Below are positions 3,936 to 22,751 of a stretch of DNA of 22,751 nucleotides, one piece after another. This stretch comes from a virus. Made by a program: the position numbers and the translations under genes. The notes under the pieces are model-generated. The model was not told the origin of the DNA. It searched no databases and saw nothing but the letters and a program-made list of their open reading frames with translations. Each line of letters starts with the position of its first letter. Positions within the stretch are counted from its first letter, which is position 1. The stretch lies in IMG/VR virus record IMGVR_UViG_3300038461_000184, positions 1 through 22,751 of that record, one strand, 5' to 3'.

Positions 3936-4114
3936 GGCGCAAGCGTGATGGTCGTCCAATCCCAGCAGCAGAATCCGTCCTGCCCGAGGTCTTGCTTGAT
4001 CTGCGCGATGTCCTCATCGCAGAGCCCGTCCTTGTTCGTGAGGAGGAAATCCGCCCAAGTGCAGGGTTCCTGCCCGTCGACGGAGACCAGCGTTTCGTCG
4101 GTAATCGTCTTCAT
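3932..4114 (-). CDS. Small hypothetical phage protein, 60 aa
   Basis: MKTITDETLVSVDGQEPCTW begins the protein, followed by ADFLLTNKDGLCDEDIAQIK and a short C-terminus (GFCCWDWTTITLAP). It is acidic and looks like one helix followed by a strand. It starts 3 bp after the stop of the upstream gene, and its TGA overlaps the GIY-YIG start. Not recognised. Confidence 0.65.
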   Translation of the reverse strand: MKTITDETLVSVDGQEPCTWADFLLTNKDGLCDEDIAQIKQDLGQDGFCCWDWTTITLAP

Positions 4115-4403: not shown

Positions 4404-5166
4404 CCAAGTCCACCGGTTCGGCCGGAGCCTTTAGGTTGCGGTAGGAGTAACCGTAAACCTCGTCCTTGATGAGCTCGACCAACCCGGGATTGCGCTCCGC
4501 CACGGCGATGAGTTGGAACGCGAAGGACAGACGCCCTGGAAGGATCGCGCCCGCGCAGGCGCTAAACCAGTCATCCTGCGAAGTGGGGGCTCCCGTCAGC
4601 CGGGCAATCAGCGCCGCATCTTCGATTGGCGTGAGCACCCTGGCCAAGGCCTCGTCGGCCGCCGCGAGTTCCTGCGCGGTTGTTTCGCCTTCGAGCAACT
4701 CGGCATGGAACTGCGTCCGGCCCTCATCAGTGAGCAGGTAGCCTTTGCCCCGGCCGGGCAGCCGATCCAACCAGCCGCGCTCCTCCGCCCGCCGGATCGC
4801 CCGCACAAAGGACCAATGTGCCGCCGCTTTGCCCGTATCGGATTCCAGCCGCGCCTTCAGCGTCGGAAAATCCGCTTTCCCGCCGCACCGCGCAAGCGCC
4901 GCCCCAATCAATTCACCACGGATCTTCTTCTGCTGCCCATCCGCCGTTTCCCACACCCCCTCCCCTTCGTTCACATACCAAAGACCCGTCTTCGCGTTGT
5001 ACCGCATCACCTCCGCCTTCCGCATTTGGTCCCAAACCCACGACGCCACGTCCATCCGCGGATTCCCCGCCCCGTCCACCATCAGCCACCGCAGCAGCGG
5101 CGACCCCTCCGCCGTACTCCCAAACGCCATCGGTTCGTATCCCTTTAGTAGTTCGATCATTTTCAT
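4399..5166 (-). CDS. Hypothetical protein with winged-helix-like middle and C-terminal AEPVDLD tail
   Basis: 255 residues from ATG at 5166 (MKMIELLKGYEPMAFGSTAE). Residues about 40-100 look like a folded alpha/beta segment (WVWDQMRKAEVMRYNAKTGL). Residues about 125-160 resemble a winged-helix wing: a helix RAIRRAEERGWLDRL, then GRGKGYLLTDEGRTQF, the L-T-D-E-G-R pattern common in winged-helix regulators and replication accessory proteins. The last residues are RNLKAPAEPVDLD. The same tail, with different codons, ends the divergent gene at 5445-5879. The gene is followed by the operator and by a terminator hairpin. A regulatory or replication role is plausible, but no family is recognised. GC-rich codon usage matches the other structural genes. 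Confidence 0.7.
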   Translation of the reverse strand: MKMIELLKGYEPMAFGSTAEGSPLLRWLMVDGAGNPRMDVASWVWDQMRKAEVMRYNAKTGLWYVNEGEGVWETADGQQKKIRGELIGAALARCGGKADFPTLKARLESDTGKAAAHWSFVRAIRRAEERGWLDRLPGRGKGYLLTDEGRTQFHAELLEGETTAQELAAADEALARVLTPIEDAALIARLTGAPTSQDDWFSACAGAILPGRLSFAFQLIAVAERNPGLVELIKDEVYGYSYRNLKAPAEPVDLD

Positions 5167-5200
5167 AGGTAAATTTCGCTTGCTTGGCACGGACGGCCAT

Positions 5201-5261
5201 GACTCAGGGGGTAATCTTCTCACCGCGCTCCACAAGGTTGAGAAGTTACTACCCCTCAGTC
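5201..5261. repeat. Large imperfect inverted repeat in the divergent intergenic region
   Basis: The left arm GACTCAGGGGGTAATCTTCT (continuing CACC) and the right arm, read in reverse complement as GACTGAGGGGTAGTAACTTC (continuing TCAACC), align over about 24 bp with a few mismatches and small gaps, around an 11-bp centre. It lies 35 bp upstream of the minus-strand ATG at 5166. Possible roles are a regulator binding site, a replication origin element or an RNA hairpin. Confidence 0.6.
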
Positions 5262-5331
5262 AAGTCGCAATGCCGTCAATCCGCTCCCGTAAACTCCCGC
5301 TCTGCCGGACGCTTGCCATCTGTGCAAGCCT

Positions 5332-5381
5332 GCGGGATATTGTGCCATAAAACTGCCAGATATTCTGTCATAATATCCTGC
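5332..5381. repeat. AT-rich inverted repeat between divergent genes
   Basis: GCGGGATATTGTG and CATAATATCCTGC are reverse complements with 2 mismatches in 13 bp, separated by 24 bp. The interior holds the related words TGCCATAAAAC, CCAGATATTCTG and TGTCATAATA. This is the most AT-rich patch between the divergent genes and fits an operator/promoter or an origin unwinding element. The remaining bases of 5167-5444 show no convincing gene. Confidence 0.5.
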
Positions 5382-5444
5382 ACCTCCAAATCACGATACC
5401 GTTCTCCCTTGAAATCCTTCTCACATGCAAATGAAGTCTCGCGT

Positions 5445-5879
5445 ATGTGCGCAGAACCCGCATTCCCGACTGCCGAGGCAATTGAGCTCTTGGCGCCCGC
5501 CTCTGGCAGCGGTGTTGGCAAACAGATCGCTCAGAGGCTTCTCAGCCGGCCCGACTGGCTGGACCTTGTAGAGAATGCGCTGGTGCATGCACTTACCGCA
5601 CAAAGCCGGTTCTACGACAACGCAACGAAATCGCATGTCGTCATGCAGGATGCGAAGACCCAGCTTGCCGCCGTGCTGGGCATCTGGTCGCACCTGGAAG
5701 GCGATCCAATCAAGCGAGTCATCCACGAGAGAGGCGGCAGCGGCAGCAGCCCGGTCGAGGATCTTGAGGCGGCGCTCGCCAATTCGCCGGCGCTGGCCGC
5801 AGCCGTCCGCCGCACCCTCGCCAAGGCCGAGCGGAACCTCCAAATCAAGCGCGCTGAGCCCGTCGACCTCGACCCCTGA
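5445..5879 (+). CDS. Hypothetical helical phage protein, possible small terminase-like; C-terminal AEPVDLDP
   Basis: 144 residues from ATG at 5445; the frame is open further upstream but without a good start, and no strong Shine-Dalgarno is visible. It is predicted mostly helical: FPTAEAIELLAPASGSGVGK, then QRLLSRPDWLDLVENALVHA and DAKTQLAAVLGIWSHLEGDP followed by IKRVIHE. The pattern of a helical bundle, an FYD segment, then a helix ending E-G-x-P-x-x-R recalls small terminase-like or helix-turn-helix phage proteins, but this is a weak resemblance and TerL is 11 kb away. The C-terminus RNLQIKRAEPVDLDP matches the tail of the divergent gene (RNLKAPAEPVDLD) despite different codons. It is the first gene of the plus-strand unit. 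Confidence 0.65.
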   Translation: MCAEPAFPTAEAIELLAPASGSGVGKQIAQRLLSRPDWLDLVENALVHALTAQSRFYDNATKSHVVMQDAKTQLAAVLGIWSHLEGDPIKRVIHERGGSGSSPVEDLEAALANSPALAAAVRRTLAKAERNLQIKRAEPVDLDP

Positions 5880-6263
5880 TTTTCGGTCGATCCTCAGCAA
5901 CTTGCGAAAGCTGGCGCGTTCCGGATTGGCGAGTGTCGTGCAAAGCGTTGGAGTAGACGATGCTACAGCATTTAACGCACAAGAACCATTACGAGACCTA
6001 AACAAATCGGGTGCGTACCAATCCGCCGTTTGGCATCGGCCTGGTGGCGTTGCGTCGATCCGGACGCGGCCGACCGCTCCTGGCGCAGATCCGCCGGCCC
6101 GATGCACCCCGACCCTCCCCCTATGCCCCCGTTTAACGCGGCTACGTGCTGTCCAAAAAGGGTGTCATGGGGAAAGCATTCCTTGGCACGGAGCCCCCGG
6201 GGTGTTACCGTGGCATGGTAGAATAGTATTGACATAATTGCGCGACAGTACGAGGGTGTGGGG
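5880..6263. other. 384-bp intergenic region with one degenerate operator-like site
   Basis: No convincing gene is seen here; short frames exist, for example a 41-codon GTG frame from 6012, but lack support. TTACCG-TGGCA-TGGTAG at 6205-6221 matches the phage operator core with two mismatches in the right half. TTGACA occurs at 6229-6234, but no matching -10 box follows at the right distance. No tRNA-like cloverleaf was recognised. Confidence 0.4.
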
Positions 6264-6920
6264 ATGGACGAAACACCAAACGAGAACTGGAAAGCGATAA
6301 CCGGGTACGATTGGTACGAGGTTTCAGACTACGGGAGGGTGAGGTCGGTGGCGTATGGGGATTGGAGGCTGAGGGCGCTGGCGGTGAACCGGATTGGGTA
6401 CGTGAAGGTGGCGCTGAGGGTGGAGGGGGCGGCGGGGCGGGCGGAGACGAAGAGTGTGCACCGGCTGGTGGCGCTGGCATTTTTGGAGAATCCGCTGGGT
6501 TTGCCGGAGGTCGATCACTTGGACGGGGACAAGGAGAACAACTGGGTTGGAAATTTGGAGTGGGTGACGAAGAAGGAGAACACGCGGCGGGCGGTGGCGC
6601 GGCTTGGGGTGTGGCTTAGGGCGGCGTGGGCGCGGGTGAAGAAGCCGGTCTGGATGGTGGATCCGGTGGGGAAGACGGTGACGCGGTTTGGGTCGACGGC
6701 GGAGGCGATTGCGCTGTTGAGCTCGATGCAGGAGACGGCTGGGGGTTTGGCGTTGGGGCCCGGGGCGGCGGCGAACATCTGCCATGCGAAGGATCGGGCG
6801 AAGATGGCGTACGGGTATTTGTGGTGGTCGAGGCCGGTGAAGGACGTTGAGGGGTATTTGGGGAAGTTGCGGCCGTCGAAGCGGAGCCCCTTGGGGGGGA
6901 TTTTGCTGGCAGGGAGGTAG
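6264..6920 (+). CDS. HNH homing endonuclease (NUMOD4-HNH-IENR1 layout)
   Basis: 218 residues from ATG at 6264. Residues 9-28 are a NUMOD4 motif (WKAITGYDWYEVSDYGRVRS). Residues 63-105 are the HNH nuclease: V-H-R-L-V-A-L-A-F at 65-73, VDHLDGDKENN at 83-93 with metal-binding D84-H85, and NLEWVTKKEN at 97-106. Residues about 125-150 resemble the IENR1 DNA-binding motif (KKPVWMVDPVGKTVTRFGST). This is the usual layout of phage-borne free-standing or intron-associated HNH enzymes. It is expected to cleave a related allele lacking the gene. No intron borders are evident. Its codons are exceptionally G-rich at third positions compared with the 12-16 kb genes, suggesting separate ancestry. Confidence 0.88.
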   Translation: MDETPNENWKAITGYDWYEVSDYGRVRSVAYGDWRLRALAVNRIGYVKVALRVEGAAGRAETKSVHRLVALAFLENPLGLPEVDHLDGDKENNWVGNLEWVTKKENTRRAVARLGVWLRAAWARVKKPVWMVDPVGKTVTRFGSTAEAIALLSSMQETAGGLALGPGAAANICHAKDRAKMAYGYLWWSRPVKDVEGYLGKLRPSKRSPLGGILLAGR

Positions 6921-6926
6921 GGATTT

Positions 6927-7403
6927 TCATTGCCCAAGCGATTCGGCGGGGATTGGTTGGGGGCGATGAAAACACGAGCGAAGATGCGGGTAGCGTCGGT
7001 CTTGGTGACCGGTTATTCCGATCTGGTGACGCTGCAGGCGGTGTACGGCGGCGGAAACAACGCCGAGGACAACACGTATGCGAAGGCGACACCGAGCGGG
7101 AAGCTGGAGCTGCAGATCGACAACCCAGCGGTGCGAGGGGCGTTCAAGCCGGACCAGGTGTACTACGTCGATTTGACGCAATTGCCGGCGGATCCGGCGG
7201 CGGGCCCGGCGGTGGCGCCGTAGGGGGTAGAGATTCGCCCGGTGCTGGTGGCCGGCTGCCCGGGGTGGACGCGAGAGCGAAGTCCCGGGTTTTTTGTGGA
7301 GACGGGAGAGGAGCCAGGAGGCGAAGGCGGCGGTGCAGGGGTAGCAGAATTGGGATTCCCAGGAGAAGAGGGGTTGGTGGCAGCGGCGGCAGAAGGGATT
7401 CAT
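6927..7403 (-). CDS. Possible zinc-ribbon protein; only the N-terminal part is convincing
   Basis: ATG at 7403 opens MNPFCRRCHQPLFSWESQFC, continuing YPCTAAFASWLLSRLHKK. The two CxxC pairs (C5-C8 and C20-C23) look like a real zinc knuckle. The frame continues to 6927, but its second half is antisense to the plus-strand gene at 6966-7223 and looks like an ordinary shadow, with repetitive Arg/Leu/His. Either a short zinc-ribbon gene has lost its stop, or the whole frame is chance. The start lies beside the divergent promoter proposed at 7407-7415. Confidence 0.3.
   Translation of the reverse strand: MNPFCRRCHQPLFSWESQFCYPCTAAFASWLLSRLHKKPGTSLSRPPRAAGHQHRANLYPLRRHRRARRRIRRQLRQIDVVHLVRLERPSHRWVVDLQLQLPARCRLRIRVVLGVVSAAVHRLQRHQIGITGHQDRRYPHLRSCFHRPQPIPAESLGQ
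6966..7223 (+). CDS. Small conserved phage protein, 85 aa
   Basis: ATG at 6966 follows TTGGGGGCG, a plausible G-rich ribosome binding site. The protein reads MKTRAKMRVASVLVTGYSDL, continues VTLQAVYGGGNNAEDNTYAK, then ATPSGKLELQI, and ends with FKPDQVYYVDLTQLP plus a Pro/Ala tail. The K-A-T-P-S-G-x-L-x-x-x-I-x-N-P and F-K-P-x-x-x-Y-Y-V-D motifs are, from memory, those of a short all-beta protein seen in phage genomes of several groups, of unknown function. It is followed 35 bp later by a strong terminator and so ends the plus-strand unit. Confidence 0.72.
   Translation: MKTRAKMRVASVLVTGYSDLVTLQAVYGGGNNAEDNTYAKATPSGKLELQIDNPAVRGAFKPDQVYYVDLTQLPADPAAGPAVAP
7259..7295 (+). terminator. Intrinsic terminator after the 85-aa phage gene
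   Basis: CCCGGG at 7259-7264 pairs with CCCGGG at 7284-7289, extended inside by GAC/GTC, and is followed directly by six T residues (7290-7295). Stem, loop and T-run are typical of rho-independent termination on the plus strand. Confidence 0.8.
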
Positions 7404-7406
7404 CAC

Positions 7407-7415
7407 TGATATAAA
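7407..7415 (+). promoter_or_regulatory. Extended -10 promoter element
   Basis: TGATATAAA contains TG-N-TATAAA, an extended -10 box. No clear -35 is seen, which is tolerated for extended -10 promoters. It would start a transcript at about 7422, reading into the hairpin-rich segment that ends at the terminator 7522-7549. Confidence 0.4.
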
Positions 7416-7421
7416 CGCGGG

Positions 7422-7549
7422 AGCGTTACAGCTTGTCAGGATCCGGGCGGGATGCACGATGGGGGGTGCAAGACAATCGCATGGCGGCATGAAGGCTGCC
7501 GGGCGTCTCTTCACTTGCCGGAGCCACTCGAGCGATCGGGTGGCTTTTT
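7422..7549 (+). ncRNA. Candidate small RNA, about 128 nt, ending in an intrinsic terminator
   Basis: The segment lies between a complete terminator (7259-7295) and a second plus-strand terminator (7522-7549), so something should be transcribed from within. It has consecutive short hairpins: ATCC/GGAT near 7441-7453, TGCAC/GTGCA near 7454-7471 with a G-rich loop, GGCGGC/GCTGCC near 7486-7503, then the terminator stem. No good open reading frame with a ribosome site is present. It is not recognised as a known RNA family. A short peptide gene remains possible. Confidence 0.4.
7522..7549 (+). terminator. Intrinsic terminator (plus strand)
   Basis: AGCCAC and GTGGCT pair, with CGA/TCG extending the stem around a GCGA loop and one bulged base on each side, followed by TTTTTG. 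On the minus strand no T-run follows. It would terminate plus-strand transcription before the convergent minus-strand genes. Confidence 0.7.
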
Positions 7550-7614
7550 GTTTGGGCATGAAGAGGGGGCCCCATTGACGGAGCCCCCGGGGAGGACTTG
7601 AGAGTGGGAGGGGG

Positions 7615-8160
7615 TTATTCCTTGGATCTGGCGATGCCGTCCTCGATGGCTTTGGCGGCGATGTCGCCGAATTCCTTGGAGCCGATGCAGGTTTCGATGG
7701 AGTGGACGACGGCGGATCTGACGGATTCGGAGATGGCGCCGGCGAGGGTGGGGCCGTCGTCGTCACGATCCGGCTGGAGGGCATCAAAGAGGGCGCTTTG
7801 AACCTGCTGGAGGATGGCCTGGCCGAGGCGTTTATCGTTGCCGATCGTGAGGGAAGTCAGGAGTTGGTTATGCACATGGCGGTTGGCCTCGGCGATGCCG
7901 CGTTCGATGAGATCGATCACGCAGTCGCCGAATGGCTCGGTGAGGTTTCCGCGCAGAGAGTTTTGCACCGCCCGGGAAACAGCCTCCGAGATCGAGTCGT
8001 CGACCCGTGCGATGAGAGCATCAGCGAAGGACAAATCTTTGTTTTCGATGGCGATGGCATGTTCGACTTCGAGGCGGAGCCGGTGGGCAATATCGATGAG
8101 CTCGTCGGCGAGGCGTTTGGAGTCTTCGGGTTGGAGGAGGGCGTTTTGCATGGTGGGCAT
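7615..8160 (-). CDS. Helical hypothetical protein with internal duplication, 181 aa
   Basis: ATG at 8160 (MPTMQNALLQPEDSKRLADE); an in-frame ATG three codons later is an alternative. It is entirely helical, acidic and without enzyme motifs. Two stretches appear to be copies: SISEAVSRAVQNSLRGNL followed by FGDCVIDLIERGIAEA, and AISESVRSAVVHSIETCI followed by FGDIAAKAIEDGIARS. A structural or assembly role is a guess. It is the last gene of the minus-strand block starting at 11068. A GC-rich hairpin (GGGGGC/GCCCCC near 7564-7590) lies past the stop, without a good T-run. The coding strand is C-rich, unusual compared with other genes here. Confidence 0.65.
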   Translation of the reverse strand: MPTMQNALLQPEDSKRLADELIDIAHRLRLEVEHAIAIENKDLSFADALIARVDDSISEAVSRAVQNSLRGNLTEPFGDCVIDLIERGIAEANRHVHNQLLTSLTIGNDKRLGQAILQQVQSALFDALQPDRDDDGPTLAGAISESVRSAVVHSIETCIGSKEFGDIAAKAIEDGIARSKE

Positions 8161-11685: not shown

Positions 11686-12324
11686 ATGAGCGAGTTCAAC
11701 CTCGACTGGGTGAGGGAGTATTGCCCGAAAGGTCTCTGGAGCGTGTTCGACGTCGGAGCCTACGATTGTGGGGATGCGATGCGATTCAAAGCGGCTTATC
11801 CCAAGGCGAGCGTGCTCGCCTTCGAAGCCAATCCGGCCGCGATCACGTTAGCGGTCACCCGCGGCGCCCCGGCCGCCGGCGTGAAGATCATCTGGGGGGT
11901 CGTAAAAGACGACAACGAGCCGACGCTGTTTTACCCGAATGATGATCCGCGTCAGGAGGGAAACCCGGGCATGAGTGGCTCCTTTCTGGAGACGACCGCC
12001 GCGCTGCAGGAGCGGGAGAAACATCTTGTATTCAAAAAGCCGATCATCGTCCCCGGAATCCGCTTGATGGATTTCTGCCTGCAGAACATCTACTACGGCA
12101 TCGACCTGCTGCATCTCGACGTCCAGGGCGCGGAGGGCCACGTCCTGCGTGGGTTAGGCCCGATCCGTCCGAAAATGATCTTCCTCGAGGTCGACGAGAC
12201 TGATAACTACGAGGGTGCCGTCAGTCGGTTCGACGTTGCCAAGATGCTAGATACGATGGGTTATCGTCGAAAATGGATCGGCGCGCACGATGAATTCTGG
12301 GTTTACGAGCCGCATTTGACATGA
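11686..12324 (+). CDS. FkbM-family methyltransferase
   Basis: 212 residues from ATG at 11686. It should transfer a methyl group from S-adenosylmethionine, usually to a sugar hydroxyl in this family. The Rossmann motif I is FDVGAYDCGDAMRF and motif II is VLAFEANP. The family signature LLHLDVQGAEGHVLRGL is followed by PKMIFLEVDET. The next gene begins with a second copy of this domain (MSEFNLDWVREY versus MSDFNLGWINQY). The gene starts 4 bp after the preceding stop and overlaps the next gene as ATGA. Together with three following genes it forms a glycan-modification cassette. The substrate, whether virion glycan or host surface polymer, cannot be told. Confidence 0.85.
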   Translation: MSEFNLDWVREYCPKGLWSVFDVGAYDCGDAMRFKAAYPKASVLAFEANPAAITLAVTRGAPAAGVKIIWGVVKDDNEPTLFYPNDDPRQEGNPGMSGSFLETTAALQEREKHLVFKKPIIVPGIRLMDFCLQNIYYGIDLLHLDVQGAEGHVLRGLGPIRPKMIFLEVDETDNYEGAVSRFDVAKMLDTMGYRRKWIGAHDEFWVYEPHLT

Positions 12325-14795
12325 GTGACTTCAATCTCGGTTGGATCAACCAGTACATTCCTGGGCCCCCGCGGCTCATCCTCGACGTCGGCAGCTTCGA
12401 CGGTGGGGACGCCATGCGCTTCAAGCAGGCTTTCCCGAAGTGCCGGGTGGAAGCCTTCGAGGCGGATCCGAAGAACTTCGAGCGCATGCGCCTGGCCGAT
12501 CAATGCCGGCAAACGGGTGTCGGCATCCATCATTTTGCCGTGGCCGACACTGACGACCAGACGGTCGACTTCCACCCGAACACCGACAAGCGGCCGTGGA
12601 ACCCGCTCGGGAGCTGCTCCGGATCGATCCTAAAGCCTCTTCCGAGCTGCACGGAGATGTATCCATTTCTCGAATTCCACGAGCCGGTGAAGGTCAAGAC
12701 GATGCGGCTGGATACCTTCTGCGAAGTCCACAAGACCGGCGCTATCGACGTCCTGCACATGGATATTCAGGGTGCGGAAGGGTTCGCGATCAAGGGACTG
12801 GGGCGGCTCCGCCCGCGGATGATCTTCCTGGAAGTCGACGAGACGACACACTACGACGGTGCGATGCCGCTGCCGGAGCTACGGGCGCTCCTCGAGGGTA
12901 TGGGTTATTCGAAGGTCTGGGAGAGCGCCCACGATGCGCTCTACGTCTTCAACATGAACAGCGGTTTGGATGATCTGACGGTCTGCATCACCAGTTTCAA
13001 GCGCGGCCGTTATCTCGACCGAGCGCTCAAATCCTGCCGTGCGGCCGGCATCCAGCGCATTGCGATTGCCGCCGTCGAACCAACCGAGGAGGTCAATGAG
13101 GTCATTGCAGCCAATTCCGAGGGCTGGCTCAGCTTCGACGTCTCGCGGATTCAAGACGACATTGGGTGTAACAATACCTGGATGGTGGCAGCCTACCGGG
13201 CGCGCACCAAGCGCATCATCGTCCTGCACGACGACGACTTGCTCTCTTCGGAGTTCGGTCGAACCTACGTCGACACGATCGAGCCGGAACTGACCGCTGG
13301 CGTGGGATTTGCTTCATGGCGCCCCAATGTTCTCTACGACAATGGGAGCATCGCGGCCTGCGATTATTGGTCCTCGGATACGGCTGTTTATCCTTCCTCC
13401 AGTCTCGAGCCAATCCTCGATCACTGCCTGACTCATTCCCCTTGCGTGAGTGTGCTCGACCGGGAGACGGTCATTCACGCCTGCAAGGAGGCGGAGGCAA
13501 CGCTCATCGAAAACGACTCGCTCGAGCGCCCGGGGATGCTGCTCGGGACCGAGTTGCTCGTCTACTACCGCCATATCCGGGCCTTCCCAAAGTGGCTCTA
13601 CGTGAATGAAGTTCTCTGCTCCTTTGGATCTCATGCCGGCAGCGGGACCATTGCCGCGATGACCAAGGGGCGGGATGCCGTCGAAATGCTCAAGCGTGGC
13701 TACGCACTCGCCAAGGCGCAGGGGAAGCGCGCTCCCGTCGAGATTCATCCTCCGAAGCTGCTCTTGCTCTATTCTGAATTCGAGGCGAAGGATGAGGAGC
13801 AGGCGAAGCGCAACGCCTTCGCCAAGGATTCCTGGCAGTTCCACCTTTCGAATGCTGATTTCATTGAGATACCCGTGCGGGATGGCGAGTTGAAGCGATC
13901 CGGCGCGGATCTCGGAGACAAACCCGTTCCCTATGTCAAAGACCTCTTCGACGCCGGCTGTGCCTACGCCATGCCCGAGGATATCGTGGTTTACGCCAAC
14001 CGTGACATTGGATTCACCACCGCAGCGCCCGAGCGTATCCTCAACGGAGTCAAAATCGGCCAAGGTATCACGGTCTGCCCGCGGCGCTGGCTCTTCCCGA
14101 ACGGCCGGCTCTACAAATCGGTCCGGAACTGCAAGCATGACGGCGGGTTCGACGTGATGGCATTCACGCCGGCCTGGTGGCTGGTCCACCGGGAGACGAA
14201 AATGCCGGACATGCTGATCGCTCGTGAGGGCTGGGATACCGTGTTCCGCACGATCGCCGAGGAATGGGCGGATCACAAGGAACTGCTCGATCACGTCACC
14301 GACGGACCTCCGGAATGGAACCGAAGCCTCGCCTACACGGATGATGTTTGTTGGCATTGGCCCCACGAGAGCGAGTGGGAGACCAAGCGGACGAGTCTCC
14401 CCGGCCAGATCCACAATCGGAGGCTGGCCCGGGCTTTCTTTCTCGAGCGGAAAAACTTCGGGGTCGTCGCGTTGCTCGACGCCTACGGCGCTCCGCCGCG
14501 GGCGGTGCCATTCGGCCAGGTTTCCCAGACTCGCCGGCGCGTCACATTCCAACCACCCGAAGAACGTTACCATCCGCAAACGACGCAGCCGCCGCAACCC
14601 GGCCTAATCAAGACGAAGGTGCCGCGCACCGTGCGGATGACCGAGCCCATTCAGGCGCGTAGGCCTCCGCTACCTCTCCCGCTGCCACCGCCAGCCAGAA
14701 GCCTCCTCCCTGGGTATGTTCCACCGGTGCAGGCACGGAAGCCGACACTCGCGGAGCTCAACGCGAAGAGTCAGCTCGGGTTTGCCCGCAAATGA
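12321..14795 (+). CDS. Fusion: FkbM methyltransferase - GT-A glycosyltransferase - second GT-like domain
   Basis: 824 residues. Residues 1-212: FkbM methyltransferase paralogous to the preceding gene (LDVGSFDGGDAMRF at 21-34, VEAFEADP at 43-50, HMDIQGAEGFAIKGL at 146-160). Residues about 218-460: family-2-like glycosyltransferase (LTVCITSFKRGRYLDRAL at 219-236, metal/nucleotide-sugar motif VLHDDDLLSS at 301-310). Residues about 478-700: a third alpha/beta domain (KLLLLYSEFEA, MPEDIVVYANRDIGFT) that looks like another nucleotide-sugar-binding fold, less certain. Residues 740-824: Pro/Gln/Arg-rich tail, probably disordered. It could glycosylate and methylate one glycan in a single polypeptide. 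The start overlaps the upstream stop as ATGA. Confidence 0.8.
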   Translation: MSDFNLGWINQYIPGPPRLILDVGSFDGGDAMRFKQAFPKCRVEAFEADPKNFERMRLADQCRQTGVGIHHFAVADTDDQTVDFHPNTDKRPWNPLGSCSGSILKPLPSCTEMYPFLEFHEPVKVKTMRLDTFCEVHKTGAIDVLHMDIQGAEGFAIKGLGRLRPRMIFLEVDETTHYDGAMPLPELRALLEGMGYSKVWESAHDALYVFNMNSGLDDLTVCITSFKRGRYLDRALKSCRAAGIQRIAIAAVEPTEEVNEVIAANSEGWLSFDVSRIQDDIGCNNTWMVAAYRARTKRIIVLHDDDLLSSEFGRTYVDTIEPELTAGVGFASWRPNVLYDNGSIAACDYWSSDTAVYPSSSLEPILDHCLTHSPCVSVLDRETVIHACKEAEATLIENDSLERPGMLLGTELLVYYRHIRAFPKWLYVNEVLCSFGSHAGSGTIAAMTKGRDAVEMLKRGYALAKAQGKRAPVEIHPPKLLLLYSEFEAKDEEQAKRNAFAKDSWQFHLSNADFIEIPVRDGELKRSGADLGDKPVPYVKDLFDAGCAYAMPEDIVVYANRDIGFTTAAPERILNGVKIGQGITVCPRRWLFPNGRLYKSVRNCKHDGGFDVMAFTPAWWLVHRETKMPDMLIAREGWDTVFRTIAEEWADHKELLDHVTDGPPEWNRSLAYTDDVCWHWPHESEWETKRTSLPGQIHNRRLARAFFLERKNFGVVALLDAYGAPPRAVPFGQVSQTRRRVTFQPPEERYHPQTTQPPQPGLIKTKVPRTVRMTEPIQARRPPLPLPLPPPARSLLPGYVPPVQARKPTLAELNAKSQLGFARK

Positions 14796-15517
14796 AGCCG
14801 GTTTTTTCGATTCTGCACGCCAGCCTCGGGCGCCCGGAAAAGGCGTTCGCGGCGATGATCGACTGGATCGCCAAGAGCAATTACCCGGATCTCGTCGAGT
14901 ACATCTTCGCACTCAACGCAGACGATCCGACCGCACACGAGCTCATCAATAAACTTGTGCCGGGTAGGTTGCTTGGTGAGCGCGTTCATGTGGTGCAGGA
15001 TCAATTCTCCGGCTCGGCAGCGGCTTGGGATGCCGCGGCCAAGATTGCGAAGGGCGATCTGCTTATTCAGGCGCAGGACGACGTGGAGCCGCCGGGACTT
15101 TGGGCGAGTGGGCTGATGGACGTCCTGTTGAAGGAGGTCGGCGGTAACTGGCGCAATGAGCCGGTGGTTATTCGCGTCTCGGATGGTTACCGCCAAGACG
15201 GGCTGATGTGCACGGCGATTATGACGATGGCCCGCGTGCGGCAGGAAGGTCATTTCATCTTCCCTGGCTACCTCTCGGTCTTCAGCGATGACGAGGTCAC
15301 CTTTAGAGCAATGAGGGATTCACGCATGGGCATCTGTAAGTTGATCGATGCACGCGACCTCGTTTTCCGCCATCGCCACCACTACCACGACAAGAGCGTC
15401 CCGTTTGACGCCACCTATTCGAAGGAAAACAGCGCCGAAGCTTATATCCATGGGGAGAAACTCTTCTTCGCCCGCAATCCGGAGGCCCGCACAGACGGGA
15501 TCATCACATGGCACTAA
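14792..15517 (+). CDS. Glycosyltransferase-like protein (GT-A fold)
   Basis: 241 residues, ATGA overlap with the fusion gene. The N-terminus MKPVFSILHASLGRPEKAFA, continuing AMIDWIA, is a typical family-2 start. D96-D97 in LLIQAQDDVEPPGLWASG is the nucleotide-sugar/metal motif, and FSDDEVTFRAM (164-174) with FRHRHHYHD (192-200) fits the acceptor/catalytic side. It would transfer a sugar from an activated donor. No membrane segment is present, so it is probably cytoplasmic. The next gene overlaps its end by 10 bp. Confidence 0.78.
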   Translation: MKPVFSILHASLGRPEKAFAAMIDWIAKSNYPDLVEYIFALNADDPTAHELINKLVPGRLLGERVHVVQDQFSGSAAAWDAAAKIAKGDLLIQAQDDVEPPGLWASGLMDVLLKEVGGNWRNEPVVIRVSDGYRQDGLMCTAIMTMARVRQEGHFIFPGYLSVFSDDEVTFRAMRDSRMGICKLIDARDLVFRHRHHYHDKSVPFDATYSKENSAEAYIHGEKLFFARNPEARTDGIITWH

Positions 15518-16218
15518 CCCCACGTCTCTTCATCGCCATCCCCTGCTTCAACCGCTTCGAGATCGCCCAGCAATGCCTTCCGACGATCAAAGTGAATCGG
15601 TGGGACTGCGTCGGCATTTTCAACGACGGATCGACGGAGTACAGAGGGAGCCGGCTGAGGAAATGGTGTGATTGGCTCTTCGACCGCAAGGAGAGGATGG
15701 GGATAGAATGGCAGCGCCGGCGGCACTTCAGAATCTTCTGGCGCTGCTACGAAAAGGCAGGATTCACCCACTTCTACCTCACGGATGCAGATGCGCTGCA
15801 TGATCCATCCTGGCGCTCCGAGGCGCTCCATCTGCAGGACGAATACGGCGGCGCGCCGGTCTGCCTCTACAACACCGCCGCGCACGTCCGGCTCAGTGGG
15901 AACACCATCGAAGACAACCCTGGGCAATATGTCATTTGGCGCCGCTACGCACCCGGAATCAGTTACCTCCTGACCGTCGAGCACGTTCGGATTGTGATGC
16001 GGCACATCGATCAGATGACCAACTGGGACTGGCAGGTCTGCGATTGGCTCGGCAACCGCATGGCGATCTCGAGGCGGAGTTTCGTGGATCACATTGGCCG
16101 CGGCGGCATCCACCACCCAGAGAACGAGGGGTTCAATGGCGGGGACGTCGCGCTCAACCCCACAAGTTTTTTGGTAGATAAAAGGGCGGAAGTAATCTCA
16201 ATACTATCCAAGGAATGA
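15508..16218 (+). CDS. Family-2-like glycosyltransferase
   Basis: 236 residues. Nucleotide-binding start FIAIPCFNRFEIAQQCLPTI (8-27), FNDGST at 38-43, and the D-x-D-type motif LTDADALHDPSW at 91-102. H-I-G-R-G-G-I-H-H-P near 195-204 resembles the C-terminal His/Gly segment of related enzymes. The last 15-20 codons become visibly AT-richer, matching the adjoining HNH gene. The original C-terminus may therefore have been replaced when that gene inserted. Confidence 0.8.
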   Translation: MALTPRLFIAIPCFNRFEIAQQCLPTIKVNRWDCVGIFNDGSTEYRGSRLRKWCDWLFDRKERMGIEWQRRRHFRIFWRCYEKAGFTHFYLTDADALHDPSWRSEALHLQDEYGGAPVCLYNTAAHVRLSGNTIEDNPGQYVIWRRYAPGISYLLTVEHVRIVMRHIDQMTNWDWQVCDWLGNRMAISRRSFVDHIGRGGIHHPENEGFNGGDVALNPTSFLVDKRAEVISILSKE

Positions 16219-16955
16219 ATACGGAAGGCTTTCATTGCAGGGAATCTGTGATACTTACTCGTCCACGAGCATTGAAGAATTTCTATGCCAGAGTCGATCG
16301 TAGTGGGGGAGCAGATGCATGCCATAATTGCCGTGGGCACACATTTAATAATGGCCGAATGGCCAGATACGCGAGAGTGCGTACCACGGAAGGGAGCTTC
16401 GGGGCTCATCGGATAGCTTATTTTCTAGCTAATGGAGATATTCCGAAAGGCCTGTGCGTATGCCATTCGTGCGACAATCCCTTATGCTGTAATCCAAGCC
16501 ATCTTTGGCTAGGTACGAATGCAGACAATGCCGCAGACCGAAGTGCAAAAGGACGTGGTGCCTTTGGCGATCACAATGGATCTCGTCGGCATCCCGAGAG
16601 GTATCCCAAGGGTGATTTGAGCGGTCCCCATCTTCATCCTGAATTAATGCCCCGCGGTGATAGGCATGGCTCTCGCACACATCCTGAACGTCTGCCCCGA
16701 GGAGACCGCAATGGTATGCGAAAGCATCCGGAAAGCGTACTTCGTGGAAGCAAATCACCCAATGCGAAACTGACAGAGGGAATGGTCTTCCAAATCAGAT
16801 CCTTTGCGGCGCAAGGTGAAAGTATACGATCGATCACTCGAAGATTCTTGGTGTCCCGGCGGACAATTCAATTCGCGATCCGCGGTCGGAACTGGGCACA
16901 CCTTCCGCTTGTCCAAAAGCGCAAAGAGGTTGTCGCGGCCCTCGAATCGCAGTAG
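16215..16955 (+). CDS. HNH endonuclease with four 15-residue repeats
   Basis: 246 residues, ATGA overlap with the preceding stop. Residues 36-105 are a zinc-supported HNH domain: C36-H-N-C39, GAHRIAYFLANGDIPKGL, then C-V-C-H-S-C-D-N-P-x-C-C-N-P-S-H-L-W-L-G. Residues 118-177 are four tandem 15-residue units with the plan G-D-x-x-G-x-x-x-H-P-E-x-x-P-R, leading into NAKLTEGMVFQIRSF and a helix-turn-helix (VSRRTIQFAIRGRNWAHL). Similar His-Pro linkers occur in phage HNH proteins. The DNA is clearly less GC-rich than the flanking genes, consistent with an invading homing gene placed directly in front of terL. Confidence 0.85.
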   Translation: MNTEGFHCRESVILTRPRALKNFYARVDRSGGADACHNCRGHTFNNGRMARYARVRTTEGSFGAHRIAYFLANGDIPKGLCVCHSCDNPLCCNPSHLWLGTNADNAADRSAKGRGAFGDHNGSRRHPERYPKGDLSGPHLHPELMPRGDRHGSRTHPERLPRGDRNGMRKHPESVLRGSKSPNAKLTEGMVFQIRSFAAQGESIRSITRRFLVSRRTIQFAIRGRNWAHLPLVQKRKEVVAALESQ

Positions 16956-16964
16956 GCCTTGGTC

Positions 16965-19814
16965 ATGGTAGACGGCAGCGTACTCATTTCCTCTGTCGCC
17001 AGTGACGCCGGCGCCTGGTTCGAGAATTACGGTCGGATCTGGCCGAAAGATCGCAACCGCGGGCTGATCTGCCCGAAGCTCAACTACCTGCAGACCGAGA
17101 TTCAGGAGGTCGTGCAGCGAATGGAGGATTTGGACCTTCCGGTCCGCATTGTTGGTCTGAAACCCCGGCAAAAGGGCTCAACCACCTATTTCGCGGCGGT
17201 CGATTACTGCCATCTGAGGCGGGCATCTGCGCACGCCTGCCTCATCGGCGGACAGTATTCCCAGACAACGGAAGTCTGGGAGATGATGAAAACCTACCAG
17301 AAGAACGATACGTTCGACTGGAGGAACACCGGCGAGATCAACGCGAAGGAGGGCCGATGGTCGAACGGCAGCCGGCTCACCCCGGAAACGGCGAATGACA
17401 AACTGGCCGGTATCTCGACTACCTTCCAAATCCTCCATTGCACGGAGCTCGCCCGCTGGGCGAAGTATGGCGTTGCGAACGCCGGCGCGGTCCTCACCAA
17501 CATTCTAAAATGCGTCCCTCTCCTCCCGGGAACGATCGTGATTCTCGAGAGCACCGCCGAAGGCAACTGTTACGATGACAAGACGGAGATTCTTACAGAT
17601 GCGGGTTGGAAGTTTTTCAAAGACCTCAATGGACGAGAGGGCATCTTGACCAAGAATCCGGAGACTTCAGTCGCTTACTATCAGAAGCAATGGAGCCCAG
17701 TCATCAGCAAGTGGAAGGGGGAGATGGTGCATTTCGAGACTCGCACCGTTAATCTAGTGGTAAGCCCTAACCACATGATGTGGATGGCGAGGCAAAAGGG
17801 TAAAATGAAACTCCAAGCGGCTGAGACGGCCCTCGGGGAAAAGACCGATTTCATTTTTGATCGAGCGATGAAATGGGCGGTGCCTGGTTTGGAGGCGATC
17901 ACAATACCGAGCTACACTCACGTTCAGGGTAACGGCATTCGCACGCATCAGCCTATTAGAATCCCGATCGATATTTGGTTGAGATTTCTTGGGCATTGGC
18001 TGGCCGATGGCCACCTGAGTTTCAGGCAACGTGACAAAAAGGTTGTATTGACGCAAACCAAGTTTCCTGAGCTCTTCCGCTCATCAGCGAAAGGAATCGC
18101 TGATTGCCTAGGGTCACCACTGAGGGACATGCCTCATACGAATGGAAGGAGATTTGAAATCTGTAATGCCCAACTTGCTTCTTATCTCACCGCGTTTTGT
18201 CGCCCGAAAAGGATTCCGCGGGAGCTTCTTATGGGATTGTCTTCGGTCCAGTGTAAGCAACTTATTCAATCGATCTACGAAGGAGACGGGGATCAGTACG
18301 ATGCAGAGACGCGGAAAATCGAGAGAGGAACAATTTTCTGCGGGATAGATAAAGAATTTCAGGATGACTTACAGGAATTAGCCTTGAAGGCCGGTTACGC
18401 AACGAGTGCCTTCGGGCCAGATAGAAACCGTCGGGCTACTTTCACGGCATCTACTCGGGCGATGGTCCGGTACGACAATCCTCCATTTGTAACTGAGGAT
18501 TACGATGGGATGATCTATTGTGTCAAACTACCCAAGGATCACCTATTGATGGTGAGGAGAAAAGGGAAAGCGGTTTGGTGCGGGAACACCGGGGAGTTTC
18601 ACGACCGGTTTGTCGCCGCGGTCGACGCGCAGGACTTTCTGAGCGGTCGGGTGCAGCTCATCCCCGGACAGTACGTGCGAGTTTTCGCTCCCTGGTTCGA
18701 GTTCGATGATTCGGCCATCCGGTTGACGCCAGAGCAGAAGCGAGAGATGGAGCGGACGATCGATTCAGACGAGGAATTCTCTGGCGAGCGCGATCTGATT
18801 AACGCCTACGGACACGAGGAAAACGGCGTCATGCGGCTCGGCAATAGCGTGAAGGATTATGACGTCTGGGAGCAGCTCGCTTGGCGCCGCTTTGCCATTC
18901 GGGAAGAGTGCGAACGAGACAAGGACATTTTCGATCGCGACTATCCGCATAGTTGGAAGGAGGCTTTTCTGAAGAGCGGCGACCGTCGCTTTAACTCGAC
19001 CGGACTTTCCGTACTACGAAAAAGGCTGGGCTTGCGCGTTCCGATGCCTGGGATCTTGGAGGAAACGAAGAGCCGCCGTCTGTCCTTCCGCCAAACAGAG
19101 CAGCGCGGGGCGAAGTTCATCATCTTTGAGAAGCCGCTCGCCGGCCGCCGGTACCTCATGCCGGTCGACGTGATGACCGGTGCGACCCAAACTGGCGGCA
19201 CCGACCCAGATTTCCACTCTGCCTTTGTTCTCCGGGCTGGTTACTGGGACACCAATGGCAAGTGGATCCGGCCGGCCACGGCGGCGCGGATCGTCGCCTG
19301 TCAGTGGGATATTGACGTTCTGGAGGATTCCGTCTGGAGACTCGCCCGCTTCTATGGAGGGACCGTCGGATGCAAAATCGCGATCGAGATGAACATGGAC
19401 CGCGGCCTCACGGAGCTCCTGAAGCAGCGCAGCGCGGATATGTATATGCGCGAAATCTTCAACCGGAGGGAGTTCAAGACCACGTCGGCGCTTGGCTTCA
19501 ACACGAACGAGAAAACCCGGGAGATGATCGTCGAGGTCCTTGCCAAGGCGATTCGTGAATGGGACACGCCCGGCGAAGGGATTGACGTTTTCGATGCCCG
19601 AGCCATCGAGCAGATGGAAAACTTTGTTAGAAAGCTCAACGGCCGCAGCGAGGCGGCAGAGGGGTTCCACGATGACGACGTCATCTCGATCGCGCTCGGC
19701 CTGCAGTTGATCGAACAGGCGACGAGTTTTTTCCCCGAGAGGTTTGGAAACAGTTTGCCCCCGGACCTGCGCGGCACGCCGCAGGGCCAGGGGCAACCGT
19801 CCCAGTTCAGCTGA
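16965..19814 (+). CDS. terL: Large terminase subunit (TerL) containing an intein
   Basis: 949 codons from ATG at 16965 (a TTG at 16959 is an alternative start); 609 residues after intein removal, a normal TerL length. It is the packaging motor that translocates and cuts phage DNA. ATPase: Walker A-like GLKPRQKGSTT (64-74), Walker B FQILHCTELARW (154-165) with E161, coupling motif ILESTAEG (193-200). The intein (202-541) interrupts directly after the coupling motif, at AEGN/TGEF. Nuclease: MPVDVMTG with its Asp, CKIAIEMN with its Glu, and FHDDDVISIALGLQL near the C-terminus, matching the RNase H-like metal site. YPHSWKEAFLKSG is the usual inter-domain motif. The gene ends just before the period-5 array. 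Confidence 0.93.
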   Translation: MVDGSVLISSVASDAGAWFENYGRIWPKDRNRGLICPKLNYLQTEIQEVVQRMEDLDLPVRIVGLKPRQKGSTTYFAAVDYCHLRRASAHACLIGGQYSQTTEVWEMMKTYQKNDTFDWRNTGEINAKEGRWSNGSRLTPETANDKLAGISTTFQILHCTELARWAKYGVANAGAVLTNILKCVPLLPGTIVILESTAEGNCYDDKTEILTDAGWKFFKDLNGREGILTKNPETSVAYYQKQWSPVISKWKGEMVHFETRTVNLVVSPNHMMWMARQKGKMKLQAAETALGEKTDFIFDRAMKWAVPGLEAITIPSYTHVQGNGIRTHQPIRIPIDIWLRFLGHWLADGHLSFRQRDKKVVLTQTKFPELFRSSAKGIADCLGSPLRDMPHTNGRRFEICNAQLASYLTAFCRPKRIPRELLMGLSSVQCKQLIQSIYEGDGDQYDAETRKIERGTIFCGIDKEFQDDLQELALKAGYATSAFGPDRNRRATFTASTRAMVRYDNPPFVTEDYDGMIYCVKLPKDHLLMVRRKGKAVWCGNTGEFHDRFVAAVDAQDFLSGRVQLIPGQYVRVFAPWFEFDDSAIRLTPEQKREMERTIDSDEEFSGERDLINAYGHEENGVMRLGNSVKDYDVWEQLAWRRFAIREECERDKDIFDRDYPHSWKEAFLKSGDRRFNSTGLSVLRKRLGLRVPMPGILEETKSRRLSFRQTEQRGAKFIIFEKPLAGRRYLMPVDVMTGATQTGGTDPDFHSAFVLRAGYWDTNGKWIRPATAARIVACQWDIDVLEDSVWRLARFYGGTVGCKIAIEMNMDRGLTELLKQRSADMYMREIFNRREFKTTSALGFNTNEKTREMIVEVLAKAIREWDTPGEGIDVFDARAIEQMENFVRKLNGRSEAAEGFHDDDVISIALGLQLIEQATSFFPERFGNSLPPDLRGTPQGQGQPSQFS
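17568..18587 (+). mobile_element. Intein with LAGLIDADG endonuclease inside TerL
   Basis: 340 residues, starting at Cys (CYDDKTEILTDAGWKFFKDL, block A) and ending at WCGN before an extein Thr. Block B is NLVVSPNHMMWMA (62-74). The LAGLIDADG endonuclease motifs are FLGHWLADGHL (140-150) and LIQSIYEGDGDQ (232-243). The C-terminal splicing block is DYDGMIYCVKLPKDHLLMVR (311-330). The penultimate residue is Gly instead of the common His. The bordering exteins read ILESTAEGN and TGEFHDRF, restoring a conserved TerL motif region. Base composition is lower in GC than the exteins. It should self-splice from the precursor and copy itself into intein-less terL alleles. Confidence 0.92.
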
Positions 19815-19820
19815 CCGGCC

Positions 19821-20668
19821 ATTCCAAACCGCGCCCGGCCGCGCTCCGCTGGACCTCACCTCGCCAGCCGTACCATGTCCCATCGCGCTAATCCTCGCTC
19901 CACCCGGCTTGGCCAAGCCTGCCGCGCCTCGCCTCATCAAGCCTCGCCACGCCCAACCTCGCCTGTCATGCCGCGCCGGGCCATGTTTCGCCTAACCCCA
20001 CCAGACCAGGCGGTGCTGCGCCGCGCCTGCCAGACCAAACCTGTCTTTGCATAACCTAACCCAGCCGGCCGGGCCGCGCTCTGCCCGACCTTGCCCGTCC
20101 GCGCCAAGCCAGATTTTGCCGCGCCGAACATTGCCGCGCCTGCCGTGCCATGCCAAACTGTGCTTCACCATGCCTCGCTTCGCCGGGCCGGCCGTTCCAT
20201 TGATTACAGAACCTCGCTGCGCCGCGCCTGCCATACCTCTCCGGCTGGGCCACACCAGACCTAACCACTCCTTGCCCCGCCGGCCGCGCCGAGCTTTGCC
20301 ATACCAACCTGTGCCATGCCACACCTGCCGGACCGAGCTTTGCTTTATACCGCCAGACCGTAGAATACCGCGCCCGGCCGCGCCGGACTGGGTCTTGCGT
20401 TTCCGTGCCTGACCTGACCAGTCATGCCGTACCCGTCTCGGCCATACTACGCCATGTCCTGCGGCGCCCCACCACGCTCGACCGCGCCTGCCGTGCCTGA
20501 CCCGTCTGAATCATTCCCCGCATTGCTAAGCCTGGCCTGCCGTTCCATGTCACGCCATAGATTGCTGCGCTCCGCTACACCCTACCGCGCCGGCCTCGCT
20601 GCACCCAACCCGGGTAAACCAGACCGTGCCTGCCGCGCTGGACCGGACTAGACCAAGCTATACCTTGC
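19821..20668. repeat. Degenerate pentanucleotide array, consensus NNRCC (GGYNN on the minus strand)
   Basis: For about 848 bp CC (or CT) recurs every 5 bp with the other positions variable, giving roughly 169 units. Example runs: TTCCA-AACCG-CGCCC-GGCCG and GCCTC-GCCAC-GCCCA-ACCTC. The phase drifts slowly through occasional 4- or 6-bp units, for example near 19866 and around 19960-19980. All minus-strand frames are open over parts of it and give peptides of Gly, Arg, Ala, Trp, Met and His, a by-product of the period, not real proteins. It lies between the convergent terL and the gene ending at 20685. No gene or known repeat family is recognised. Confidence 0.85.
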
Positions 20669-20684: not shown

Positions 20685-21317
20685 TTAAGCGGGGACGGGA
20701 ACGTATCGCTCGAAGCGTCCCCAGCCCAAAGCTGAGGATTTCTCCGGTCGACCTTCACAGATGCCGACACCCCATCCAGCCTGTTTGATGAGCGCCAGTA
20801 ATTGCTCCTCACTTACGAGGCGCGGATTGTACTCTACGGTGACGCGCAACTGCCACTCATTATAGACCGGACGATAGGCCAGTCCTCGGGTGTTGATGCC
20901 AATGGTGACGGCATGCTCGGCAAAGACGCCGACGGCGGGTGTTCCATCAAACATCTCGATGGGAACAAGCTGACTGGTCGGAGCTACTGTCGGAGAGACG
21001 AATAACGCCTGCCGCAGCGCAACCTTTGTGAGGTCCTCGAAAGCCGTGGCAGCAGAGACGATGGCCTTTTTGAGCGCGGTGATAGGAGCGCATTCCCTCC
21101 CCTCTGCATCCACATAGCGAGCTGCGAGAAACTCCGCTTGAGGATCTCGGGCCTCTTTCGCCTGTTTGGCGTTTTTCGCCTGCTTTTTCCTGATTTCACG
21201 CTTCGCCTTCTCGTCGAACTGGTGAACTACGAGCGGAGAGCCGGGCTTTCCGCGTAGGATGATGTCGATCGACTGAATATCTCCCTTCGGAGCTAATACG
21301 TCTGGTGTTGCATTCAT
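20685..21317 (-). CDS. Conserved phage protein of unknown function, 210 aa
   Basis: ATG at 21317 (MNATPDVLAPKGDIQSIDII); the frame upstream crosses the operators and is rejected. Residues 17-30 (IDIILRGKPGSPLVVHQF) are followed by a Lys/Arg-rich helix (EKAKREIRKKQAKNAKQAKE). A central part contains ALKKAIVSAATAF and LVPIEMFDG. The C-terminus reads RPVYNEWQLRVTVEYNPRLV, then LLALIKQAGWGVGICEGRPE and SALGWGRF. The AG-x-x-x-GVG-x-x-x-G-R-P and G-W-G-R-F end is, from memory, shared with a phage family of unknown role. It is regulated, by inference, from the operator pair at 21380-21416. Confidence 0.7.
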   Translation of the reverse strand: MNATPDVLAPKGDIQSIDIILRGKPGSPLVVHQFDEKAKREIRKKQAKNAKQAKEARDPQAEFLAARYVDAEGRECAPITALKKAIVSAATAFEDLTKVALRQALFVSPTVAPTSQLVPIEMFDGTPAVGVFAEHAVTIGINTRGLAYRPVYNEWQLRVTVEYNPRLVSEEQLLALIKQAGWGVGICEGRPEKSSALGWGRFERYVPVPA

Positions 21318-21379: not shown

Positions 21380-21416
21380 TTACCGTCAAGCGGTATTTTA
21401 CCGCCACACGGTAAAA
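21380..21416. promoter_or_regulatory. Two adjacent repressor operators between divergent genes
   Basis: Site A is TTACCG-TCAAG-CGGTAT (21380-21396); site B is TTTTACCG-CCACA-CGGTAAAA (21396-21416), a perfect 8+8 palindrome. Centres are 18 bp apart. Both spacers recur in the repressor promoter at 11123-11176. A minus-strand TAAAAT (21400-21395) and a plus-strand TATTTT (21394-21399, with TTCCGA 17 bp upstream) could be -10 boxes, so both directions might be repressed. Promoter calls are weak; the palindromes are clear. Confidence 0.65.
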
Positions 21417-21471
21417 TGACCGACATTGCAAGAATTTGACAGTCAGACGGAGGCTCCGTAGCGGCTGGCAA

Positions 21472-22751
21472 ATGGCCGCAGACACGTCCGCCCCTGTCAG
21501 AACGAAGAAAGGCGCCGACGACGAGGAGGATATTCTACCCCCGCCGGACGAGCGAGATAACCCACTCCCAGAGGAGAATCCCGAGCAGCCAGAGCAGCAA
21601 ACCGGTCCGCAGGCGAATCGGCCGCAGGTACCTACACTTGGACCGCGGAAGACAATTCCGCGGGTTGACGAAAGTCTTCTACCTGAGAGCCGAGTAGCGC
21701 GGCACGAGAAGGCGGACGAGGAGACGAGGGCAGCGACCGCCGAGGCCTACAGCGAGCAGCACCCTTTCCAGCCGTCGGGGTGGACGCCCGGAGCATCCCC
21801 GCAGGCGATCAAACAGGGAGAACTGACTGCAGACCAGGAGGCCACTGATAAGGCGGCGCTGGATCGATACAACCTTGTCGAACAGCGCAGGGCCCGCATG
21901 CAGCAGGTTCGGCAGCAGAACGTTGATTTCCAGAAGCAGGCGGCAGCGACCGGACAGCGTTCGTATGTAGATGAAAATGGGGTGAAACAGCCCTTGCTTG
22001 AGCCTGGCACGAATCGGCCACTCTATACGCCGAGCCGCTGGGAGGACGCCGTCAATCCCGCCGGCGAACCGGCCCGGATGATGAGCGACGCCTACGGCCA
22101 GAGGCAATTCAAGCCTCACCCGGTTGCATTCAACGACGCGGATCTCAACGATTCGAAGGCCTATTACCGGAACATGGCGGGAGAGTTGGTCGACTCCGGC
22201 CAGACGCTCGAGCAACTCACCAAGCACAGTGATTTCAACGTCCGGATGGGCGCCCGGAAGGCAATAAAGCAGAAGGACGCGATGGTCTACAAGGAGGCGC
22301 TCCGACCATACGAGGAGGCGACGGAGTTCTCTGCGATCAACCTCAAAAAGGCCGAAGATGATCTGATGGGCTGGCAGGATAGGATCAAGCAGCAGACGGC
22401 TTTGGTCGACGCGACGCTCGATCCGGTCCAGAAGGCCGGCCAACAGGCAACGCTCGACCAGTTGAATGCGCAGGCGCAGCAGCTCGAGGCGGCAGTCAAA
22501 CCGAATACCGGCAACCTCTGGCGGCTCAACAAGCAGGCGGAATTACACAAGGGCATCGCGTCGGCGACGATGCACCAAAAGCTCCAGGAGCACCAGATTG
22601 GGGAGCGAATGGAGTTTCTGAAATCGAATGGGCTGCCGGTGGAGGGAGATCCAGTTCTTGAGAGCATCAACACCGCAATCGCGCAGGGCGCTGCAGGCAT
22701 CAACGGCGCCGCGCAGATGGCGAAGGCCCGCGCCGCAGCCGGCTGGCCGCA
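21472..22751 (+). CDS. Large hypothetical virion or internal protein (3' end outside window)
   Basis: The frame is open from ATG at 21472 to the window end (426 codons, no stop). Residues 1-45 are acidic and Pro/Gln-rich (disordered; DDEEDILPPPDERDNPLPEE). Residues about 70-170 are charged and helical (DRYNLVEQRRARMQQVRQQN). Residues about 175-430 are long Gln/Ala/Glu-rich helices (AQAQQLEAAVKPNTGNLWRL), ending in an Ala-rich stretch (INGAAQMAKARAAAGWP). No catalytic motif is visible in this part. Position after TerL suggests a structural gene such as an internal or very large multidomain protein; this is inference. The portal protein that often follows terL is not recognisable in this N-terminal part. 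No good Shine-Dalgarno precedes the ATG. Confidence 0.7.
   Translation, partial: MAADTSAPVRTKKGADDEEDILPPPDERDNPLPEENPEQPEQQTGPQANRPQVPTLGPRKTIPRVDESLLPESRVARHEKADEETRAATAEAYSEQHPFQPSGWTPGASPQAIKQGELTADQEATDKAALDRYNLVEQRRARMQQVRQQNVDFQKQAAATGQRSYVDENGVKQPLLEPGTNRPLYTPSRWEDAVNPAGEPARMMSDAYGQRQFKPHPVAFNDADLNDSKAYYRNMAGELVDSGQTLEQLTKHSDFNVRMGARKAIKQKDAMVYKEALRPYEEATEFSAINLKKAEDDLMGWQDRIKQQTALVDATLDPVQKAGQQATLDQLNAQAQQLEAAVKPNTGNLWRLNKQAELHKGIASATMHQKLQEHQIGERMEFLKSNGLPVEGDPVLESINTAIAQGAAGINGAAQMAKARAAAGWP

Follow-up and report, generated by a model that had tools for sequence, protein, structure and literature searches.

A phage-borne array of GGYNN pentamers beside a predicted RAMP-fold gene: a probable VIPR locus

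Genes and features of the locus

The window, i.e. the whole stretch of 22,751 nucleotides of viral DNA that was analysed, carries a long degenerate repeat and a short gene on the minus strand, placed between two plus-strand late genes. The features relevant to this region are listed below. Guide ends in the list are 4-base breaks that were set from the DNA alone.

16959..19814, plus strand: terminase large subunit gene (terL; PHROG terminase match, 3e-6), a neighbour outside the VIPR system described below
about 17568-18584, plus strand: apparent intein inside terL (L002, a homologue without intein, covers residues 9-203 and 543-943 in the alignment)
19812..20664, minus strand: putative guide (vrRNA) array of GGY NN pentamers, with 4-base units GGCA, GGCC, GACA, GGCT and similar; its grammar is common to 215 other loci
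19920..19963, minus strand: guide 15, GGY perfect in 7 of 8 units, one of the best-preserved guides
20067..20140, minus strand: guide 12, 14 units, 10 with perfect GGY, ending in GGCC; among the longest guides
20420..20488, minus strand: guide 5, NN = GC CG GT GG GC AG AT GT AT CG CG AC AT, then GACT
20538..20591, minus strand: guide 3, NN = GC AG GT GG GC AA AT GT AT AC, then GGCA
20685..21317 (ATG at 21317), minus strand: predicted vipr gene, 210 aa, RAMP fold, PHROG 4652 family, by profile, PDB and model matches
21415..22749, plus strand: next late gene, a stop-to-stop frame that runs off the window end; in L002 and L003 a homologue (26% identity; E 5e-20 and 1e-19) follows the terL region

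A degenerate array with a five-base grammar

The lag-5 identity of the array is 0.467, compared to 0.295 +/- 0.014 in 1000 dinucleotide-preserving shuffles (maximum 0.337), and its unit-parse score is 268, whereas 200 shuffles average 6.7 and reach 11.7 at most. Both values lie far above the shuffles, and the period-5 array described in the original prediction is thus real. Its proposed limits (19821-20668, about 169 units) required correction: the best extent is 19812-20664, and a parse that permits units of 4, 5 and 6 bases divides it into 157 pentamers and 17 tetramers and uses no 6-base unit. The Fourier analysis suggested at that time was less decisive, as the power at period 5 over the whole segment (2.1) exceeds the shuffle mean (0.69) but not the shuffle maximum (2.9). 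The plain Fourier peak is weak because the register shifts along the array. Tandem Repeats Finder, run on the window, missed the array.

Read on the minus strand, the array is (GGY NN)n, with GGCA-like 4-base units at every 5k+4 bases. On the plus strand these units are TGCC- or GGCC-like, and their spacings are 39, 44, 49, 54 etc., always 5k+4. Every register shift in the window array is -1 and is carried by such a unit; these units went unnoticed in the original prediction. The phase-corrected entropies in the minus-strand sense are 1.13 (first G), 0.51 (second G), 1.34 (Y), 1.94 and 1.96 bits (the two N positions), i.e. GGY is conserved, with Y and the second G each kept in 91% of the units, and NN is near-random across the array. 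The claim that CC (GG on the minus strand) is kept preferentially therefore holds, and neither of the outcomes named as contrary to the original prediction, absence of a period-5 signal above shuffles or equal variability at all five positions, was found. CRISPR-type long identical repeats are absent from the array, which contains only the degenerate 5-base code.

The same grammar in other genomes

In order to find related arrays, we used DNA pattern scans only: two scans of viral contigs and a stricter scan of species genomes, after which the array detector was run on all loci. The same grammar was found in at least 215 viral and bacterial loci. The stricter scan contributed 37 stretches in several phyla. 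Long arrays were confirmed in contigs of 42-73% GC, with GGCA breaks mostly 44-59 bases apart. Among Cheoctovirus isolates the NN words are inherited, and whole GGCA-bounded blocks are gained or lost. Two very long arrays, L072 7605-9177 and L024 6301-7021 (307 and 141 pentamers), have almost no 4-base breaks and possibly represent a different array class.

The array is linked to one protein family

Clustering of the open reading frames around the 215 array loci revealed a single protein family adjoining the array. A six-frame profile search found its gene in 169 of the 215 loci, within 1 kb of the array in 166, and in 168 of the 169 GGYNN lies on the sense strand of the gene. Thirty-six of the 46 loci that lack the gene have their array no more than 1.5 kb from an end of the fetched DNA. 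This count is not circular, because the array, not the gene, served to select the loci. In the reverse direction, 18 cultured-phage records, many of them close relatives of one another, were retrieved through the protein, and each has a GGYNN array nearby, a weak one in LESphi2.

The window's member of this family stops 20 bp from the array, on the same (minus) strand. Its 210-aa protein matches PHROG 4652 (E 6e-20). The family profile finds the PDB entry 36pp, 'SUSP1 Vipr protein', with an E of 3.4e-27, far above every other chain, and the window sequence by itself matches 36pp with an E of 6e-4. The AlphaFold2 (AF2) model of the window protein has a pLDDT of 93, and its top Foldseek matches are Csm3/Cas7 RAMP subunits (E about 1e-4, TM about 0.4-0.5). 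By these profile and model matches, the gene product is a predicted Vipr, a minimal RAMP homologue.

A second gene family, PHROG 15946 (the B family), accompanies 122 of the 215 array loci and is likely an accessory gene of VIPR loci. It was not found in the window, which is a genome fragment. Its members (e.g. L277 4570-5025 and L280 4769-5191) share the motif ..HPLHxxFEWDDxxAAxxYRxxQARxLI.., and the AF2 model is confident (pLDDT 96) and mainly alpha; no PDB fold match was found for it.

Assignment to VIPR and comparison with known systems

VIPR (Viral Interference Programmable Repeat) is described in the available text of a 2026 preprint (PMC13142463) as a CRISPR-like phage system that silences rival phages. 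According to that text, Vipr is an ancestral RAMP, and the vrRNAs consist of 9-16 YNNGG repeats in which GGY and NN alternate; NN recognises DNA with a 1-base skip, usually at the codon wobble, and competing phages are repressed. The same text mentions staggered arrays with overlapping vrRNAs, a conserved structured 3' tail in type II VIPR, with other types differing, and the accessory genes vap1-6 (PMC13142463). In the literature searched VIPR rests on this one preprint, and the DNA scan that started from the window reached the same system independently.

We consider the window locus a phage-borne VIPR locus, with a minus-strand Vipr and about 17 contiguous vrRNA guides past its stop, at a probability of roughly 0.93. 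The array grammar, the same-strand linkage of the family gene, the match to Vipr (36pp) and the RAMP-like predicted fold lead to this assignment, together with the apparent constraint on NN and the likely target of a relative that are presented below. The locus thus adds to a known, very recently described kind of system. Among the explanations offered in the original prediction, an RNA-binding platform matches the guide array; overall, that interpretation is partly supported.

SUSP1, an Escherichia phage with type II VIPR (PDB 36pp), resembles the window, as far as the preprint text describes it, in its phage-encoded RAMP protein of about 200 aa, and in GGY/NN repeats that adjoin the gene on its strand (PMC13142463); guide length may be similar too, with 7-14 repeats for most guides. 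In VpaE1 (L329), a SUSP1-like Felixounavirus, the GGT-rich vrRNAs stand apart from one another, spaced by non-repeat sequence, whereas in the window about 17 guides run together without tails, separated solely by 4-base register breaks, and no B-type gene was found. A structured 3' tail between guides was not found in the window, an Rfam search gave no match, and a simple consensus search at the locus revealed no promoter- or terminator-like site. The window array may belong to the class that the preprint text calls 'staggered' (PMC13142463). The modules of the mycobacteriophages and Gordonia phages Saal, Quico, Pipp and ODay share with the window a contiguous GGYNN array, GGCA-type breaks and PHROG 4652, but they also encode PHROG 15946 and their GGC is more uniform.

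Vipr resembles the Class 1 CRISPR RAMP effectors (Csm3/Cas7) in its predicted fold and in periodic protein-RNA binding. Unlike Class 1 CRISPR, the window has no visible repeat-spacer array, and VIPR recognition is gapped by design. CRISPR-Cas membership was rejected, as there are no identical repeats with spacers and no Cas family among the window genes scanned. TIGR-Tas (PMC12045711) is likewise described as phage RNA-guided DNA targeting with a tandem guide array; it differs in its protein family by its description, and the GGY/NN pentamer code is not mentioned in the available text of that paper.

By analogy with the published mechanism, the array would be transcribed, and Vipr subunits would occupy the conserved GGY of one pentamer after another. 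Each guide would end where a 4-base unit breaks the 5-base register. The exposed NN pairs would then base-pair with target DNA at NN-x-NN-x spacing, the skipped base usually being a codon wobble, and the bound complex would repress genes of competing phages or prophages. It is conceivable, at somewhat less than even odds, that the lone 4-base unit (GGCA) is the whole punctuation between guides and that contiguous arrays are a distinct vrRNA organisation. If so, guides could be delimited without a tail or processing hairpin, and a single transcript of 850 bases would carry about 17 of them.

Conservation of NN between guides

The guides of the window comprise 2-18 units each, mostly 7-14 between 4-base breaks. 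Guides 3 and 5 agree at 14 of 16 NN letters over 8 units, a value reached by none of 3000 NN-word shuffles (p < 1/3000). Their GGY letters agree at 15 of 24 positions, and the average over all guide pairs is 14.2. As the two guides agree in NN and not above average in GGY, NN is the conserved part of this pair, which fits guides aimed at the same or homologous targets. NN had been regarded as free variation in the original prediction; our comparison points instead to NN as the informative part of the array. A codon phase for NN was also sought and left unused: by raw composition, 146 of 152 arrays favour positions 1-2, but a composition-free pair test fails to single one phase out.

These data bear on the possibility that the locus is a VIPR locus in decay, whose array has ceased to be produced or used. 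Only about 70% of the window units retain GG, compared to 90-100% in the closest relatives (L206, L133 and L215), and some units lack the motif altogether (ATTGA, TTACA and TTATA on the plus strand). However, the vipr frame is intact and its profile score of 191 bits is as high as that of its relatives, Y and the second G remain highly conserved, and guides 3 and 5 still agree in NN although their GGY letters differ. We therefore regard a relic as unlikely; the looser GGY may reflect the decay of some guides.

Search for guide targets

No targets were found for the four decoded guide patterns of the window (the guides 3/5 consensus and guides 12, 14 and 15). Exact scans of viral contigs gave 2, 2, 0 and 30 matches, respectively, which is about the chance level by our estimate; one guide 12 match overlaps a terminase-like frame, out of phase. 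A comparison of all guides to the 2.5 Mb of fetched loci, too little DNA for this purpose, gave no excess at any skip from 0 to 4. In all, 1497 guides were collected. The Saal guide had no convincing target in viral contigs and Mycobacterium genomes.

In the VIPR locus of Mycobacterium szulgai (L256, 3514-5151), one guide, when read with a 1-base skip, agrees with two other Mycobacterium genomes at 19 of 20 bases, at one site per genome. The sole mismatch falls in the pair beside GGCA. In each genome the site falls at the C-terminus of a large serine recombinase/integrase, assigned to Pfam Resolvase and Recombinase. The two integrases are 56% identical, and their sites differ at three positions, all of them skip bases (3 of 9). 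As controls, a 2-base-skip pattern of the guide had no match and the backward pattern had two matches at up to 2 mismatches. Simple arithmetic gives a chance expectation of about 0.13 such matches per guide, and five guides were tried in Mycobacterium genomes; the other M. szulgai guides gave nothing convincing. The serine integrase is thus a likely natural target of this guide, on sequence evidence that is good but not conclusive.

The scan thus links GGY/NN arrays with one RAMP protein across well over 100 contigs. Three points are added to the published description. Contiguous, tail-less arrays follow a grammar in which 4-base breaks recur at 5k+4 bases; a pair of guides within the same array conserves NN rather than GGY; and the 1-base-skip rule leads from a guide of a contiguous array to a likely natural target, the serine integrase. 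Together these points open the code to direct tests in common mycobacteriophages.

Genomic position and other explanations of the array

Only two terL relatives were found, L002 and L003, and neither has an array. In both, a small plus-strand gene lies between terL and the late gene that follows; at this place the window has the array and vipr on the opposite strand, and the homology of the following late gene shows that the two occupy a slot between late genes. The module lies between tail genes in ODay, LittleE and Medea1 and beside antirepressor and excision genes in Saal; in other phages, array and vipr are found beside repressor, antirepressor or excision genes or between tail genes. Given these varied neighbourhoods and the array-free terL relatives, the terL neighbour is incidental, and the VIPR module behaves like a moron.

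The position directly after terL, between convergent genes, had been considered significant in the original prediction, which proposed a DNA structural element such as a packaging or pausing site or a transcription barrier. Such an element is very improbable: the array is missing from the two terL relatives found and elsewhere tracks vipr (169 of 215 loci), not terL. The half-helical-turn spacing invoked for it does not hold either, since an average period below 5 bp drifts off the 10.5-bp helical face.

A neutral, decaying pentanucleotide microsatellite would account for the period of 5 and the local degeneracy, and had been thought unable to explain the preferential retention of CC. The other loci bear this out. 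In L151, among the cleanest arrays, GGC is present in 84 of 84 units and NN is free, and neutral decay cannot yield such a pattern, as fresh arrays are random at NN and never at GGC. Register shifts that are all -1 and the same-strand linkage to one gene family across several phyla also contradict a microsatellite, to which we assign almost no weight. Equally negligible is a repeat-protein coding region: the long minus-strand open reading frames in the array (up to 110 aa) are accidental, because GGYNN gives few stops, the 4-base units shift the frame repeatedly, none of the frames runs through the whole array, and the periodicity is 5, not 3.

The 22.7-kb fragment also holds several selfish elements, namely two homing-endonuclease-like genes (GIY-YIG/NUMOD3 and HNH_3, at 3255-3959 on the minus strand and 16215-16955 on the plus strand) and the terL intein. 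The borders of the latter read ..ESTAEGN (extein), CYDDKTEIL..AVWCGN (intein) and TGEF.., and it is absent at this site in L002; the same terL stretch, 17568-18584, has PHROG matches to families of thymidylate synthase and ribonucleotide reductase. In the L003 terL homologue (4644-7655) an apparent intein interrupts another position (HDDD / CLIGG..VHN / CIAIALG). Upstream of terL, positions 12321-16218 encode an FkbM methyltransferase, a glycosyltransferase and another conserved gene, the last two of which are kept in L002 and L003.
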